64,000 nucleotides of DNA from NCBI RefSeq assembly GCF_902832885.1, contig NZ_CADFDK010000006.1, positions 1 through 64,000 of the forward strand, in the 5' to 3' direction. This DNA comes from Burkholderia seminalis DSM 23518 (GTDB taxonomy: Bacteria; Pseudomonadota; Gammaproteobacteria; Burkholderiales; Burkholderiaceae). Each line of letters begins with the position of its first letter. The first letter of the stretch is position 1. Made by a program: the position numbers and the translations under genes. The notes under the pieces were generated by a model that worked only from the letters and a program-made list of their open reading frames with translations, was not told the DNA's origin and did no database searches. Of this stretch, positions 46,935 to 54,101 are shown in pieces.

Positions 46935-46957
46935 GTCACATTTGATATGATTCCGAC

Positions 46958-46973
46958 CTGTACAAACGTACAG
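46958..46973 (+). promoter_or_regulatory. LexA (SOS) box before the nuclease-helicase operon
   Basis: CTGTACAAACGTACAG is a perfect dyad that matches the LexA consensus CTGT-N8-ACAG of proteobacteria. It ends 12 bp before the GTG start of the FAN1-like gene, where bound LexA would block transcription. This puts the operon under DNA-damage control. Confidence 0.8.
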
Positions 46974-46985
46974 TGATCGATCTCC

Positions 46986-48683
46986 GTGACGCCTGCTTCG
47001 CCGACGCCCCCGGCGTTTTACTACCTGACCAATTTCGAACGCGCGCTGGCCTGGCTCGGCGAGCGTTACGACGACCTGTTCGACGCGCACGAGCACACGT
47101 TCGTCCGGCAGTTCGCGACGCTGCCGCAGCCGTCGCGCGCGCTGCTCGTGCGGATGCTGATGCGCAGCGGGTCCGACTTCCGCGCGAGCAAGCTCGTGTA
47201 CGACGAAATCGGCTGCACGCTCGACGCGGCCGCGCCGCTCGTCGCGCTCGGCTGGGTCGACCCGGCGCCCGCGCTCACGCTCGACGCGCTGTTCGCGCTG
47301 TCGACCAAGGCCGACCTGCTGCACATCTTCCCGTCGCTCGCGGCGCATGCGGGCGAGCGCAAGCCCGAATGGCTCGAACGGCTGCGGGCCACGTACGACG
47401 ACACCGCGCAGCCGCTCGACGCGTGGTGCGCGCAGGCCGGCGACCGTGTGCTGCGCGTGACGGTCGGCGCATTGTGCGACCGGCTGCGGCTGATGTTCTT
47501 CGGCAATCTCCATCAGGACTGGAGCGAGTTCGTGCTCGCCGATCTCGGCGTGTTCCAGTACGAAAGCGTGCCGATCGCGCCGTCGTCGCGCGCGTTCCAG
47601 CAGCGCGGCGACGTCGACGCGTATCTCGCGCTTCAGACGTGCCGCGACGCGCTCGATGCGTGGCCCGACGACGTGCCGTTCGACGACCTGACGCGCGCGA
47701 TCGATGCGGTCGGCTGCGCGCAGCCATGGCTCGCGACGCGTCGCGCGAAACTGCTGTTTGCGCTGGGGCAGACCTGCGAGCGGCGGGCCGACTGGGACGC
47801 CGCGCTCGATGCGTATGCACGCAGCGCGTGGCCCGGCAGCCGCCACCGGCGCATCCGCGTGCTCGAGCGCTGCGGGCGCGACGCCGACGCGCTCGCGCTG
47901 GCGCTCGATGCGCGCGGCCGCTTCGAGAGCGACGAGGAACGCCAGCGCGTCGAGCGCATGCTGCCGCGTCTGCTGCGCCGCGCCGGCCAGCGCGTCGAAC
48001 GTGCGGCAGCCGCGGCCGACGTGCCGCGCGAGACGCTCGTGCTCGCGCGTCCCGACGCGTTCGTCAGCGTCGAATTCGCGGTGCGCGATCATCTCGCGCA
48101 GCCGGCGGCGCCGGTCCATTACGTCGAAAACACGCTGATCAATTCGCTGTTCGGCCTGCTGTGCTGGGAGCCCGTGTTCGCGGCCGTGCCCGGTGCGTTC
48201 TTCCACCCGTTCCAGCGCGGCCCGGCCGACCTGCACGCGCCCGATTTCGCCGTGCGCCGGGCGGACGCATTCGACGCCTGTTTCGCGCAGCTCGATTCGG
48301 GCGCGTACCGTGACACGATCCGCCGGCATTTCGCGGCGAAGGCAGGGTTGCAGTCGCCGTTCGTATTCTGGGGCGTGCTGACCGACGCGCTGCTCGAAGA
48401 GGCGCTCGCGTGCCTGCCGCCCGAGCACCTGCGGCTGTGGTTCACGCGCCTGCTCGCGGATATCCGCAGCAACCGCTCGGGGCTGCCCGATCTGGTCCGC
48501 TTCTGGCCCGATGAGCGCCGTTACGAGCTGATCGAGGTGAAAGGCCCCGGCGACCGGTTGCAGGACAACCAGACGCGCTGGCTCGCCTACTGCGTCGCGC
48601 ACGGCATGCCGGTGCGCGTCGTCGACGTGGCATGGGCCGGCGAGGGCGTGGCGCGCGCGGAAGCGGCGGGGCTGTCCGCATGA
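46986..48683 (+). CDS. FAN1-like VRR-NUC nuclease
   Basis: The 565-residue protein has an N-terminal helical region (LPQPSRALLVRMLMRSGSDF; LHIFPSLAAH), a central TPR-like part and a C-terminal VRR-NUC nuclease domain. The active-site residues are Asp502 (GLPDLV), Glu517 and Lys519 (LIEVKG), followed by DNQTRWLAYC. This is the layout of bacterial FAN1, a structure-specific nuclease that unhooks DNA interstrand cross-links. Start GTG 46986 lies just after the SOS box. Its stop overlaps the start of the helicase gene as ATGA, so the two are coupled. Together with the LexA box this suggests an inducible cross-link repair unit. Confidence 0.85.
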   Translation: MTPASPTPPAFYYLTNFERALAWLGERYDDLFDAHEHTFVRQFATLPQPSRALLVRMLMRSGSDFRASKLVYDEIGCTLDAAAPLVALGWVDPAPALTLDALFALSTKADLLHIFPSLAAHAGERKPEWLERLRATYDDTAQPLDAWCAQAGDRVLRVTVGALCDRLRLMFFGNLHQDWSEFVLADLGVFQYESVPIAPSSRAFQQRGDVDAYLALQTCRDALDAWPDDVPFDDLTRAIDAVGCAQPWLATRRAKLLFALGQTCERRADWDAALDAYARSAWPGSRHRRIRVLERCGRDADALALALDARGRFESDEERQRVERMLPRLLRRAGQRVERAAAAADVPRETLVLARPDAFVSVEFAVRDHLAQPAAPVHYVENTLINSLFGLLCWEPVFAAVPGAFFHPFQRGPADLHAPDFAVRRADAFDACFAQLDSGAYRDTIRRHFAAKAGLQSPFVFWGVLTDALLEEALACLPPEHLRLWFTRLLADIRSNRSGLPDLVRFWPDERRYELIEVKGPGDRLQDNQTRWLAYCVAHGMPVRVVDVAWAGEGVARAEAAGLSA

Positions 48684-50980
48684 GCTACGTCGTCGCGGTG
48701 CGTGCGATGTGCGAGTTCACCGCGCGGCGCGGCGATCTCGACCTGCGCTTCACGCCCGCGCCGACCGCGCTCGAAGGCATCGCCGGTCACGGCGCGGTCA
48801 CGTCGAAGCGCGGCGCGCGCTACGAAACCGAGATCGCGCTGACGGGCACGTGGGGCACGCTCACCGTGCGCGGCCGCGCGGACGGCTACGATCCCGTGGC
48901 GAACCGCATCGAGGAAATCAAGACCTATCGCGGCAGCTTAGACGCGATGCCGGCCAACCACCGCACGCTGCACTGGGCGCAGGCGAAGGTCTATGCGCAC
49001 CTGATGTGCGACGCGCGCGGCCTGAAGGAAATCGACGTCGCGCTCGTGTATTTCGACATCGTGTCCGAGCGCGAGACCGTGCTGACCGAGACGCTCGATG
49101 CCGGCACGCTCGCCACGTTCTTCGCCGAGCAATGTGCATGCTTCGTCGGCTGGGCCGAGCGCGAAACGGCTCATCGTGCCGCACGCGACGCGGCGCTGCG
49201 TGCGCTGGCATTTCCGCACGGGCAGTTCCGCAGCGGCCAGCGCGAGCTGGCGGTCTCGGTCTATCGCGCGGCGCGCGACGCGCGCTGCCTGATGGCGCAG
49301 GCGCCGACCGGCATCGGCAAGACGCTCGGCACCGTGTTTCCCCTGCTGAAGGCGTGCGGCGAGGGCGAACTCGACCACGTATTCTTCCTGACCGCGAAAA
49401 CGCCCGGCCGGGCGCTCGCGCTCGAAGCGGCGACGACGCTCGGCGCCGGCACGCGCGCGCTGCCGCTGCGCGTGCTGGAACTCGTCGCGCGCGACAAGGC
49501 GTGCGAGCATCCGGACAGCGCGTGCCATGGCGAATCGTGCCCGCTCGCGAAAGGCTTCTACGACCGGCTGCCGGCCGCGCGCGATGCGGCGATCGAGGCC
49601 GGGCTGCTCGATCGCGATACCGTGCGCACGGCCGCGCGGGCTCACGACGTCTGTCCGTACTACCTGTCGCAGGAACTCGCGCGCTGGTCGGACATGGTGA
49701 TCGGCGACTACAACTACTACTACGACGGCAGCGCGATGCTGCATACGCTCGCGCAGCAGAACCAGTGGCGCGTCGGCGTGCTCGTCGACGAAGCGCACAA
49801 CCTGCTCGACCGCGCGCGCAGGATGTACAGCGCGTCGCTCGATCCGTTCGCGTTCGCGGCCGCCCGCGAAGCTGCGCCGGCGGCGCTGCGCAAGGCGTTC
49901 GACCGGCTCGCTCGTGCCTGGGGCACGGTCAATCGCGCGCAGACCGAGCGTTATGCCGCGTATCCGGACGTGCCGGGCCCGATCGTGTCGGCCGTGCAGA
50001 ACCTCGTCGCGGCGATCGGCGAACACCTGACCGACGCGCCGCGCGCGAACGGCGATGCGCTGCTGCGATTTCATTTCGACGCGATCCAGTTCGGCGTACT
50101 CGCCGAAGCGTTCGACAGCGCATCGATCTTCGACGCGACGCTGCATGGCGAACCGATGCCGCGCCAGCCGGCGCTCGATGGCGTCGCCTCGGCGAGCCGG
50201 CGCCGCCGCGTCCAGTCGACGCTGTGCGTGCGCAACGTGATTCCGGCCGGCTTTCTGGCCGCGCGCTACGACACCGCACGCGCGACCGTGCTGTTCTCGG
50301 GCACGCTGAGCCCGTTCCATTTCTATCGCGACACGCTCGGGCTGCCGAGCGATACCGGCTGGCTCGACGTCGACGGGCCGTTCCGCGCCGAGCAGCTGAC
50401 GGTGCGCGTCGCGAGTCACGTGTCGACGCGCTGGCGCGATCGCGACCGGTCGCTCGAACCGATCGCCGACCTGATCGCCGCGCAATACGCGACGCGGCCC
50501 GGCAACTACCTCGGTTTCCTCAGCAGCTTCGACTACCTCGGGCGCGTGGTCGCGCTGATGCAAACGCGCCATCCCGACGTGCCCGTATGGGCTCAGGCGC
50601 CCGGCATGGCCGAAAGCGAGCGCGACGCGTTTCTCGCGCGCTTCGACGCGGGCGGGCGCGGCGTCGGCTTCGCCGTGCTGGGCGGGGCGTTTTCGGAAGG
50701 CGTGGACCTGGTCGGCGAGCGGCTGATCGGCGCGTTCATCGCGACGCTCGGGCTGCCGCAGGTCAACGACATCAACGAGCAGATGCGGCGCACGATGGAG
50801 GCGCGTTTCGGCAACGGCTACGACTACATGTACCTGTATCCGGGCTTGCAGAAGGTCGTGCAGGCGGCCGGGCGCGTGATCCGCACCGAGCACGACGAAG
50901 GTGTCGTGCACCTGATCGACGACCGGTATCGCAGGCGCGAAGTACGCGACCTGCTGCCGCGATGGTGGCGGATCGGATGA
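48680..50980 (+). CDS. PD-(D/E)XK nuclease-XPD/DinG-like Fe-S helicase fusion
   Basis: The 766-residue protein has an N-terminal PD-(D/E)XK-type domain (Asp68 in GRADGYD; Glu79-Ile-Lys81; then a QAKVYAH segment), similar to Cas4/AddB-type nucleases. A Rad3/XPD superfamily 2 helicase follows: Walker A APTGIGKT with Lys214, DEAH box at 370-373, and the iron-sulfur cysteines 275, 282, 287 and 325. The last motifs (SEGVDLVGERL, QAAGRVIRTEHDEG) are typical of this 5'-3' helicase group. It is coupled by ATGA to the FAN1-like nuclease gene and shares its SOS box. It probably unwinds and trims damaged DNA; plain DinG lacks the N-terminal nuclease. Confidence 0.86.
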   Translation: MSYVVAVRAMCEFTARRGDLDLRFTPAPTALEGIAGHGAVTSKRGARYETEIALTGTWGTLTVRGRADGYDPVANRIEEIKTYRGSLDAMPANHRTLHWAQAKVYAHLMCDARGLKEIDVALVYFDIVSERETVLTETLDAGTLATFFAEQCACFVGWAERETAHRAARDAALRALAFPHGQFRSGQRELAVSVYRAARDARCLMAQAPTGIGKTLGTVFPLLKACGEGELDHVFFLTAKTPGRALALEAATTLGAGTRALPLRVLELVARDKACEHPDSACHGESCPLAKGFYDRLPAARDAAIEAGLLDRDTVRTAARAHDVCPYYLSQELARWSDMVIGDYNYYYDGSAMLHTLAQQNQWRVGVLVDEAHNLLDRARRMYSASLDPFAFAAAREAAPAALRKAFDRLARAWGTVNRAQTERYAAYPDVPGPIVSAVQNLVAAIGEHLTDAPRANGDALLRFHFDAIQFGVLAEAFDSASIFDATLHGEPMPRQPALDGVASASRRRRVQSTLCVRNVIPAGFLAARYDTARATVLFSGTLSPFHFYRDTLGLPSDTGWLDVDGPFRAEQLTVRVASHVSTRWRDRDRSLEPIADLIAAQYATRPGNYLGFLSSFDYLGRVVALMQTRHPDVPVWAQAPGMAESERDAFLARFDAGGRGVGFAVLGGAFSEGVDLVGERLIGAFIATLGLPQVNDINEQMRRTMEARFGNGYDYMYLYPGLQKVVQAAGRVIRTEHDEGVVHLIDDRYRRREVRDLLPRWWRIG

Positions 50981-51004: not shown

Positions 51005-51775
51005 CTACAGCACGTTGAGCATCGCGAGTGCGGCTTCCTGCAGGTGCGGCAGCACGCGCCGCACGGCTGCGTCGGCCGTCTCCGCGCCGATCGGCATGTT
51101 CGTGCTCAGTGCGGCGACCACTTCGCCGTGACGGTTCTTCAGCGGCACCGCGATCCCGCGCACGCCGACCTGCAATTGCTGCTCGATCGCCGCGAAACCG
51201 GCGTCGCGCGCATGGTCCACCTGTTCGAGCAGCCGCGCCTTGTTGGTGATCGTATGCGGCGTGAACGGCGGCAGTTCGGTTTCGTCGAGCCACGCGCGCA
51301 CGGCCTCGCGATCGGGGTGATGGGCGAGCAGCACGACCCCCGGCGACGTCAGCGGCGCCGGCACGCGTGCGCCGAGCACGAAGCCGGTCGTCATCACCCG
51401 CGACACGCCATTGCGCGCGATGAACACCAGTTCCCAGCCATCGAGCACGCTGACGTACGCCGATTCGTTCAGCGACGCGCTCAGTTGTTGCAGATAGGGC
51501 TGGACCGTGCGCGGCAGACGCGCCGAATCAAAGTACGACCAGCCGACCCGCAGCACGCGCGGCGTGAGGCCGTACAGCTTGCCGTCGGTGTACACGTAGC
51601 CGAGCGATTCGAGCGTCAGCAGGTAGCGCCGCGCGGCCGTGCGCGTGAGGCCCGTGCGGGCGGCGGCCTGCGTGGGCGTCATGCGTGCGTGCTGGCTGTC
51701 GAAGGCTTCGAGGATCATCAGGCCTTTTTCGAGGCCGGCTATCCAGTCACGTCGGTCGAGCTCGGGCTTTTTCAT
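51005..51775 (-). CDS. IclR-family regulator (PcaR/PobR-like)
   Basis: The 256-residue protein has an N-terminal winged helix (about 12-75; LEKGLMILEAFDSQHARMTP, AARTGLTRTAARRYLLTLES) and an IclR effector domain (about 90-255; VSVLDGWELVFIARNG, GRRGIAV-like GVRGIAVPLKN). Its N-terminus is of the PcaR/PobR/CatR type that controls aromatic catabolism. The decamer GCGATTATCG occurs 46 bp upstream of its start and twice before the MHS transporter and dioxygenase genes, so it probably controls those and itself. ATG 51775 fits the family start better than the longer frame. Confidence 0.87.
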   Translation of the reverse strand: MKKPELDRRDWIAGLEKGLMILEAFDSQHARMTPTQAAARTGLTRTAARRYLLTLESLGYVYTDGKLYGLTPRVLRVGWSYFDSARLPRTVQPYLQQLSASLNESAYVSVLDGWELVFIARNGVSRVMTTGFVLGARVPAPLTSPGVVLLAHHPDREAVRAWLDETELPPFTPHTITNKARLLEQVDHARDAGFAAIEQQLQVGVRGIAVPLKNRHGEVVAALSTNMPIGAETADAAVRRVLPHLQEAALAMLNVL

Positions 51776-51820
51776 CGGTGGATGGCGGAACGCGTGTGCG
51801 CGGTGAGCGCGCATAATTGG

Positions 51821-52597: not shown

Positions 52598-53899
52598 TTA
52601 CTCGCTGCTTGTCCACTCGACGTTCGCGCCGACCGACCGCAGGTTCTCGACGAAATGCGGATGCGCGCGGCGAATCGGCAGCGCGTTCATGATTTCCGAG
52701 CGGCCTTCGATGCTCGCGGCGACCATCAGCAGCGCGATCGCGACGCGGATGATGTACGGGCTCTCGACGCGTGCCGGCGTCAGTTGCAGCCCGCCGAACG
52801 TGATCAGCCGGTGCGGATCCGACAGCAGCACGTGCGCGCCGAACTTCGACAACTCGCCGGACCAGCCGAGCGCGCCGTCGTAGACCTTGTTCCAGAACAT
52901 CGCGCTGCCTTCCGCCCGCACGCCGAGTGCGATGAAGATCGGCAGCAGGTCGACCGGCAGGTACGGCCACGGCGCGGCTTCGACCTTGGTCAGGATGTTC
53001 TGCGTGAACGGCCGGCGCACGCGCAGCGGGCCGTCGCGTTCCGCGCGCGACCAGCCGTCGCGGTGCGTGACGTTGACGCCGAACTTCGCGAACGTGCGAT
53101 CGATCAGCGGGAAATGCTCGGGCGACGAGTTGCGCACCGTGATGTCGCCGCCGGTGATCGCGCCGAGCGCGAGGAACGTCGCGATCTCGTGGAAATCCTC
53201 GGCGAAGCGGAACTCGCCGCCGCCGAGCTTGCCGCCGCCCGTCACGCACAGCCGCGACGTGCCGATGCCCTCGATCGTGACGCCGATCATCGCGAGGAAC
53301 TGGCAGAACTCCTGCACGTGCGGCTCGGACGCCGCGTTCATCAGCGTCGACGTGCCGCTCGCGGCCGTCGCGCACAGCGCGAAGTTCTCGGTGGTCGTCA
53401 CCGACGCGTAGTCGAACCAGTGATCGTTGGCCGTCAGCGGGCCGTCGGTGCGAACGATCAGCGAATCGGGCGTGCGCTCGATGTGCGCGCCGAAGCGCTC
53501 GAATACCTCGACGTGCGGGTCGATCTCGCGCACGCCGAGCGTGCAGCCCTTCACGTCGTTCTCGAGGCGCGCGACGCCGAAGCGCGCGAGCAGCGGCGGA
53601 ATCAGCATGATCGACGAGCGCATCGCCTCGGGCAGCCGGTGGACGGCCGGATCGAACCTGGTGTTGCGATGGTGGAGTTCGAGCAGGCCGGTCGTGAAGT
53701 CGACCGACACGTCGCTGCCGAGCGTGCGGAAGATGTCGAGGATCTTGCGCACGTCGGTGATGTCCGGCACGCCGACGAGGCGCAACGGCTGATCGGTCAA
53801 CAGGGTGGCGCACAGAATCGGCAGGACGGCGTTCTTGTTCGCGGACGGCTTGATGTCCCCGCGCAGCGGAGTGCCGCCGTGGACGATGAGATTCGACAT
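52598..53899 (-). CDS. murA: MurA-like enolpyruvyl transferase (paralogue)
   Basis: The 433-residue protein is an EPSP/MurA-fold enolpyruvyl transferase: SANKNAVLPILCATLLTD near the start, the loop KGCTLGVREIDPH with the PEP-binding Cys, and TTTENFALCATAASGTSTLM. MurA transfers enolpyruvate from PEP to UDP-GlcNAc, the first committed step of murein building. Sequence differs clearly from standard MurA (for example VREID in place of ARPVD after the Cys), so this is taken as a secondary paralogue of the housekeeping enzyme. It lies among aromatic-metabolism genes, with no cell-wall genes nearby; another sugar-nucleotide substrate is possible. Confidence 0.75.
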   Translation of the reverse strand: MSNLIVHGGTPLRGDIKPSANKNAVLPILCATLLTDQPLRLVGVPDITDVRKILDIFRTLGSDVSVDFTTGLLELHHRNTRFDPAVHRLPEAMRSSIMLIPPLLARFGVARLENDVKGCTLGVREIDPHVEVFERFGAHIERTPDSLIVRTDGPLTANDHWFDYASVTTTENFALCATAASGTSTLMNAASEPHVQEFCQFLAMIGVTIEGIGTSRLCVTGGGKLGGGEFRFAEDFHEIATFLALGAITGGDITVRNSSPEHFPLIDRTFAKFGVNVTHRDGWSRAERDGPLRVRRPFTQNILTKVEAAPWPYLPVDLLPIFIALGVRAEGSAMFWNKVYDGALGWSGELSKFGAHVLLSDPHRLITFGGLQLTPARVESPYIIRVAIALLMVAASIEGRSEIMNALPIRRAHPHFVENLRSVGANVEWTSSE

Positions 53900-54101
53900 G
53901 ATATGGGGGCGTATCGGTGACTGACGTAGGCCCATATGATGCCATTGGTCGGCCGGTGGCGTGGAATGTTCAGAGGGGAAAAGGGGGAATCGGGCGCGCG
54001 ATTGACGGTGTTTGACGTTGGCCCGCGATACGGCGGTCGATTGCCCGCCGACGCACGAAAAATGGCCGGCAGCGAGTCGGGCCGGCCACGCACTCATTCC
54101 C

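Follow-up and report, generated by a model that had tools for sequence, protein, structure and literature searches.

The closest described relatives of the locus analysed here are the FAN1 nuclease of Pseudomonas aeruginosa (PaFAN1, PA1865; PDB 4r89 and 5y7g) and a subgroup of helicases named EndoDinG. PaFAN1 is described as a 5′-flap endonuclease tied to cross-link unhooking (PMC9635880, PMC12796719), and FAN1 enzymes are reported to prefer 5′ flaps, the cut falling past the junction (PMC9635880). PaFAN1 has been studied as a single enzyme, and the accessible text of these papers mentions neither a helicase partner nor control by LexA. EndoDinG proteins are marked by an N-terminal PD-(D/E)XK domain with the residues H, E, D, E and K together with four iron–sulphur (Fe–S) cysteines, according to section 3.7 of a 2025 review (PMC11981726) that, for their endonuclease activity, points to unpublished Bdellovibrio data. 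The sections consulted of the same review also cover DinG and YoaA, which are LexA-controlled, SOS-induced Fe–S helicases of the XPD family like the one discussed below; its main text contains neither FAN1 nor VRR. Here we describe a stretch of 64,000 nucleotides from Burkholderia seminalis DSM 23518 (contig NZ_CADFDK010000006.1, positions 1 to 64,000; hereafter the window), part of a genome of 7.97 Mb in 55 contigs, in which a FAN1 orthologue and an EndoDinG-type nuclease-helicase gene follow a predicted LexA-binding dyad and probably constitute a conserved two-gene SOS operon for DNA repair, serving in the processing of 5′ flaps, cross-links or stalled forks.

In eukaryotes, the FAN1 nuclease and the Fe–S XPD-family helicase FANCJ both act in cross-link repair, as parts of the Fanconi anaemia pathway. 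A functional likeness of the bacterial pair to these enzymes is putative; the bacterial helicase differs in carrying its own nuclease, and bacteria, unlike the Fanconi pathway, work to our knowledge without ubiquitin signalling. Nor do we know of a nuclease domain or a FAN1 partner in DinG or YoaA. The original prediction, made from the sequence alone, knew of no described bacterial pathway built on such a pair, and none was found in the full-text literature, a body of work that leaves most subscription papers outside its reach. In the literature searched, the pairing of these known parts is new; it is also real and well conserved.

The first gene had been predicted to encode a FAN1-like VRR-NUC protein, and its domain content agrees, with Pfam matches to FAN1_HTH (1.4e-35), FANC_SAP (3.1e-11) and VRR_NUC (1e-34) and an alignment of residues 3–551 with the PaFAN1 structure 4r89 (E 1.8e-177). 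The active site of PaFAN1 consists of E386, D507, E522 and K524 in the part of the structural report consulted (PMC4348246); the corresponding residues of the window protein, E381, D502, E517 and K519, lie at a constant offset of 5 and are kept in 89, 89, 88 and 89, respectively, of 89 FAN1 proteins, the window's included. These 89 loci are made up of that of the window, those of 59 from the remaining 61 FAN1 genomes in a sample of 200 genomes of its family, and 29 loci from a sample of 299 genomes of its phylum (genome G009 being counted among the latter); G155, whose contig starts at the gene, and four distant phylum genomes were omitted. Judged by full-length similarity, domains and the four active-site residues, the first gene is a full-length orthologue of P. 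aeruginosa FAN1.

The second gene matches the Pfam families DEAD_2 and Helicase_C_2. It falls far below the NCBIfam cut-offs for YoaA (77.5 vs 680) and DinG (68.9 vs 598) and is not an orthodox member of either group. Its closest solved relative is PDB 9kqh, a ‘DNA 5′-3′ helicase’ (E 1.4e-98); since that alignment begins at residue 5, the N-terminal domain is common to both proteins. In an alignment of 104 helicases, the window's included, from which cut or broken frames and proteins of fewer than 690 residues were excluded, the seven nuclease-domain residues, the four Fe–S cysteines, the Walker lysine and the DEAH box listed in Table 1 are each present in every protein, which bears out both the Fe–S XPD helicase module and the PD-(D/E)XK residues Asp68, Glu79 and Lys81 that had been proposed. 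Profile searches lend the nuclease fold weak support: no PDDEXK profile matches the window helicase itself, PDDEXK_1 reaches an E value of 0.1 or less in two helicases out of 12 (best E 0.00027), and PDB 4ic1, which we take to be a Cas4, matches at E 0.016. FANCJ also turns up among the PDB structures, as a weak match to the helicase (E 7e-10). The PD-(D/E)XK motif residues also occur in the two Firmicute homologues examined, from Listeria and Enterococcus. As far as the sections consulted describe the subgroup, EndoDinG and 9kqh are alike in having the H, E, D, E, K nuclease domain, the four-cysteine Fe–S domain and the XPD-type helicase, all of which were found in the second gene. By these sequence marks it is an EndoDinG-type helicase with a predicted nuclease activity. 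The nuclease–helicase architecture of the original prediction thus stands, although the fusion itself is not new, being that of a named subgroup with a solved relative.

Several further observations concern the helicase family. The proteobacterial EndoDinG-type proteins share three additional nuclease-domain cysteines, C11, C110 and C152 (positions 48710–48712, 49007–49009 and 49133–49135 in the window), found in 103, 103 and 104 of the 104 aligned proteins and, unlike the PD-(D/E)XK residues, absent from the Listeria and Enterococcus homologues; possibly they form a second metal or Fe–S site of the nuclease domain. In one genome (G249; L018, L058, L059) the helicase is split over two frames, covering residues 2–114 and 108–765, which points to a decayed gene or a sequencing error. 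Records of Listeria phage LM (H25–H29) contain a helicase that matches the query at 32.1–32.5%, as close as the Listeria homologue, and perhaps represent host DNA. Upstream of a solo Listeria helicase (L246), GAACGTAGGTTC, presumably an SOS box of the Gram-positive type, lies some 67 bases ahead of the point where homology begins; no SOS box was found upstream of the Enterococcus homologue. SOS control of the helicase family may thus reach beyond the proteobacteria.

FAN1 occurs in 62 and the helicase in 103 of the 200 family genomes, making the helicase the more widespread partner, and all 62 FAN1 genomes contain both (hypergeometric 2.6e-24, a value that ignores the kinship of the genomes). 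The genes are adjacent in 59 of these 62 and lie apart in G009, G047 and G036. In the phylum sample, FAN1 is present in 34 genomes, the helicase in 28 and both in 24, adjacent in 23 (all but G009), and four genomes carry the helicase alone. The ATGA overlap of the FAN1 stop and helicase start, noted in the original prediction as a sign of coupling, recurs widely: of 80 loci in which the genes are linked, 70 show a 4-bp overlap. Translational coupling is likely. Within the genus of the window, 23 genomes including its own carry the pair, and both window proteins are 94–97% identical to their counterparts in Burkholderia arboris and B. cenocepacia. FAN1 is also found in 256 of 298 Pseudomonadaceae genomes; among the best 30 of these 256 loci the helicase is adjacent in 27, and in named Pseudomonas loci it lies downstream of FAN1 in 64 of 65, the contig of the 65th stopping 155 bp after FAN1.

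In the window, the perfect dyad CTGTACAAACGTACAG ends 12 bases before the GTG start of FAN1, exactly as predicted. Two such boxes (C1:726811 and 726831) stand immediately before C1:726854, the single LexA gene found in the genome, and another, at C15:92435, precedes the recA match (C15:92572); given that the same dyad precedes lexA and recA, it is the LexA motif of this host. Among relatives, any CTGT-N8-ACAG within −150 to +20 of a gene was counted as a perfect box. Such a box precedes FAN1 in 63 of the 89 loci, window included, and nine more have the relaxed form CTGT-N7-[AC][AC]CAG, a pattern picked after inspection of the loci. Helicases without an adjacent FAN1 were represented by 25 loci (22 out of 44 such loci in the family sample and three from the phylum sample), 20 of which have a perfect box of their own. 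The background in 405,687 bp of downstream sequence from the same loci amounts to two perfect and three relaxed sites, and five control dyads (reversed, shifted-spacer and unrelated) gave no match in any of the 89 FAN1 or 25 helicase loci. The 83 perfect boxes represent 26 distinct sequences, so that the dyad is kept while its centre drifts. Where the pair has come apart, the box can accompany each half: in G009 and G047 both FAN1 (L002, L103) and the helicase (L129, L125) have one, whereas in G036 a box precedes FAN1 (L102) but is lacking from the 150 bases next to the helicase (L119). All 65 named Pseudomonas loci have a box at most 200 bases away, in 61 as the one-mismatch form CTGTATGCATAACCAG, and among the best 30 of the 256 Pseudomonadaceae loci all 30 hold a box whose core deviates at no more than one position; two of these 30 genomes are also among the 89, and the background given above covers the perfect and relaxed patterns only. 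A −10-like element is aligned across six rows, the window included, reading TGATATGAT in five and TGCTATGAT in the sixth (L076); the transcript start probably falls at the LexA box, just after TGATATGAT.

The pseudomonad branch connects this locus with published expression data. Genome G607 encodes a FAN1 that is 93% identical to PaFAN1, with a perfect box, CTGTATGCATGAACAG, 40 bases ahead of the point where homology begins, the helicase directly downstream, and a TetR gene and transport genes alongside, an order that we take to be that of PA1861–PA1866. Direct LexA control is the simplest explanation of the induction published for PA1865 and PA1866. Eighteen UV-C-induced genes of P. aeruginosa without a known LexA-like regulator are listed in one study, and PA1865 (FAN1) and PA1866 belong to the subset of the 18 whose change had been seen in an earlier study too; PA1865 is in addition given there as upregulated with ciprofloxacin (PMC12796719). 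The text seen of another paper cites PA1865 among eight ciprofloxacin-induced genes of strain PA14 (PMC8526614). A comparative study from 2012 placed predicted LexA sites before ‘Helicase c2’ genes of beta-proteobacteria; these genes may be the helicase described here, in which case part of the finding had already been noticed, and sections 7 and 8 of that study, on the beta-proteobacterial LexA regulon, name neither FAN1 nor the pairing (PMC3323433).

Seen across many genomes, the conservation of both box and linkage makes SOS control of the operon, as proposed in the original prediction, very probable, and a role of the pair in DNA repair is likewise highly likely. LexA bound to the dyad, over the likely transcript start, would repress the operon; upon damage, RecA-driven cleavage of LexA would release it, and both proteins would be made together, their translation coupled through the ATGA overlap. 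XPD-type helicases travel 5′ to 3′, starting from single-stranded DNA with a 5′ end. Given the preference of FAN1 for 5′ flaps, its substrate and that of a 5′–3′ Fe–S helicase with a Cas4/RecB-like nuclease could be common, namely a fork or gap from which a single-stranded 5′ arm extends, and it seems fairly probable that the two proteins serve one shared pathway. We infer a division of labour in which the helicase, once loaded on the 5′ arm, would open the blocked strand or strip it away, its nuclease could trim the strand that the helicase tracks, and FAN1 would cut past the junction. A cross-link would thereby be unhooked or a stalled fork cleaned, leading to gap filling by SOS polymerases and to recombination. 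The chances that cross-links are the main lesion are about even, and a physical complex of FAN1 and the helicase is somewhat doubtful.

It is important to point out that a number of observations weigh against the picture of a conserved SOS repair operon. No box was found in 17 of the 89 FAN1 loci, which comprise congeners of the window (L078–L080), members of other families of its class with a linked helicase (L015, L018–L024) and distant FAN1s (L025–L030); two of them, L021 and L022, hold a one-mismatch form. Five of the 25 helicase loci likewise have no box within 150 bases. Other LexA motifs (Xanthomonas, alpha-proteobacterial, Gram-positive and myxobacterial) gave only scattered matches in these 22 loci, one exact alpha-type in L030 and one-mismatch matches in L021, L022, L027 and L054. 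The loci are related to one another and the counts therefore not independent. FAN1 is patchy, occurring in 8 of the 25 genera sampled in the family, against 10 of 25 for the helicase, and in 34 of 299 phylum genomes, and 10 of these 34, all with distant FAN1s of 38% identity or less, have no helicase at E 1e-15. A consensus promoter scan of the region found nothing, PA1865 is given as repressed by peroxide, and PA1865 and PA1866 are listed as not known to be LexA-regulated, with no test of LexA dependence in the text consulted (PMC12796719); no mutant phenotype for either gene was found in the literature searched. Moreover, shuffled versions of the window hold a mean of 0.23 sites, with at least one site in 21 of 100, and the host genome has 37 CTGT-N8-ACAG sites compared with 33 for the reversed control. 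The box is thus weak evidence over one window or one genome, and these figures would suit a chance match in front of constitutively expressed genes. That explanation is rejected, with a probability close to nil, by the comparison between genomes, in which the position of the box is kept many times over and the control dyads find nothing in the same stretches.

More serious competition comes from the idea that the two genes are independent parts of SOS repair and have a promoter in common merely for convenience, FAN1 dealing with cross-links and the helicase, like DinG and YoaA, with R-loops, collisions or broken forks. The helicase indeed lacks FAN1 in 41 of the 103 family genomes that encode it, which also weighs against the preferred reading, and most of the 25 solo loci analysed have an SOS box of their own. 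On a quick helicase tree, 28 of whose 103 inner branches are unresolved, the paired or solo state switches six times, at least four of the switches being forced by well-supported branches, a pattern that fits repeated loss of FAN1. In G052 (L139/L245), a 131-residue frame before an intact helicase still matches FAN1_HTH (1.1e-13), and a perfect box lies 334 bases before the helicase start, a miss under the 150-base rule; to judge from these remains, FAN1 has decayed to an N-terminal remnant while the box stayed. No FAN1 match that could act as a substitute nuclease was found at E 1e-15 in the frames around ten solo helicases, whose neighbours are unannotated, although one has a FAN1 remnant. 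Independent genes would, however, hardly explain that FAN1 never occurs without the helicase in the family sample or that the short overlap is kept in so many linked loci, and we regard this explanation as unlikely, if worth keeping in mind. A tentative extension of the repair-operon reading is possible rather than probable: the pair could be a bacterial counterpart of the Fanconi step of FAN1 and FANCJ, an SOS-induced unit of two proteins in which the 5′–3′ Fe–S helicase, by means of its own nuclease too, prepares and trims the 5′ arm and FAN1 unhooks the cross-link, beside or instead of UvrABC. The helicase would then be the older core, and FAN1 a specialised nuclease that persists only in its company. 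Finally, an SOS-linked defence against phages or plasmids, comparable to CasDinG in type IV CRISPR, is very improbable. What speaks for it is the label from a broad helicase model, PADLOC typeIV_DinG (2.8e-113 on the helicase), together with the patchiness of FAN1 between genera; with no CRISPR-like repeats near the helicase, the label alone can mislead. No direct repeats of at least 22 bases within 200 bases of each other occur at 38–60 kb of the window (cas genes were not searched for), PADLOC has no match for FAN1, and the presence of the pair in so many genomes of one genus points the other way. A phage-borne origin of FAN1 was likewise rejected: neither a search of 50,697 phage records (E 1e-8) nor a viral contig scan sensitive to close relatives only gave a FAN1 match, which also counts against a role in defence.

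The preferred reading, a two-gene SOS repair operon, also agrees with the surroundings of the genes (Table 1). The gene after the helicase, an IclR-type regulator, points the opposite way, so that the operon appears to hold two genes only. This regulator is near the PcaR/PcaU/PobR type (258.5 vs a model cut-off of 284.75). Farther along, a MurA-like gene (52598–54097, minus strand) passes a broader subfamily model and misses the murA equivalog cut-off (298.6 vs 392.7); it is perhaps a second, divergent MurA.

Table 1. Features of the predicted SOS operon and its neighbours in the window.
Feature	Position	Strand	Basis or remark
MipA-family gene	ends 46890		Upstream neighbour of LexA box
Extended −10-like element TGATATGAT	46943..46951	+	Picked by eye
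Predicted LexA-binding dyad (SOS box) CTGTACAAACGTACAG	46958..46973	.	Motif match; kept in relatives
FAN1 orthologue, 565 amino acids, GTG start at 46986	46986..48683	+	Domains and active site
ATGA shared by FAN1 stop and helicase start codons	48680..48683	+	
EndoDinG-type nuclease-helicase, 766 amino acids	48680..50980	+	
PD-(D/E)XK-type domain, N-terminal, end approximate	48680..49189	+	H37, E51, D68, E79, K81, Q101, Y105
Walker A APTGIGKT	49301..49324	+	K214 in 104/104 aligned proteins
Fe–S cysteine span C275, C282, C287, C325	49502..49654	+	104/104 aligned proteins
DEAH box, residues 370–373	49787..49798	+	104/104 aligned proteins
IclR-type regulator	51005..51814	−	Next gene after helicase

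Bacterial FAN1 has so far been of use mainly as a structure with which to compare the human enzyme; the operon described here supplies it with a partner and a likely regulator. It may also account for the published induction of PA1865 and PA1866, which falls outside the damage regulons known in P. aeruginosa, and the pair could be part of the reason why bacteria withstand cross-linking agents. A bacterial pathway of FAN1 and helicase has now become directly testable, and the pair points to a little-studied route of DNA repair in Burkholderia, Pseudomonas and their relatives.

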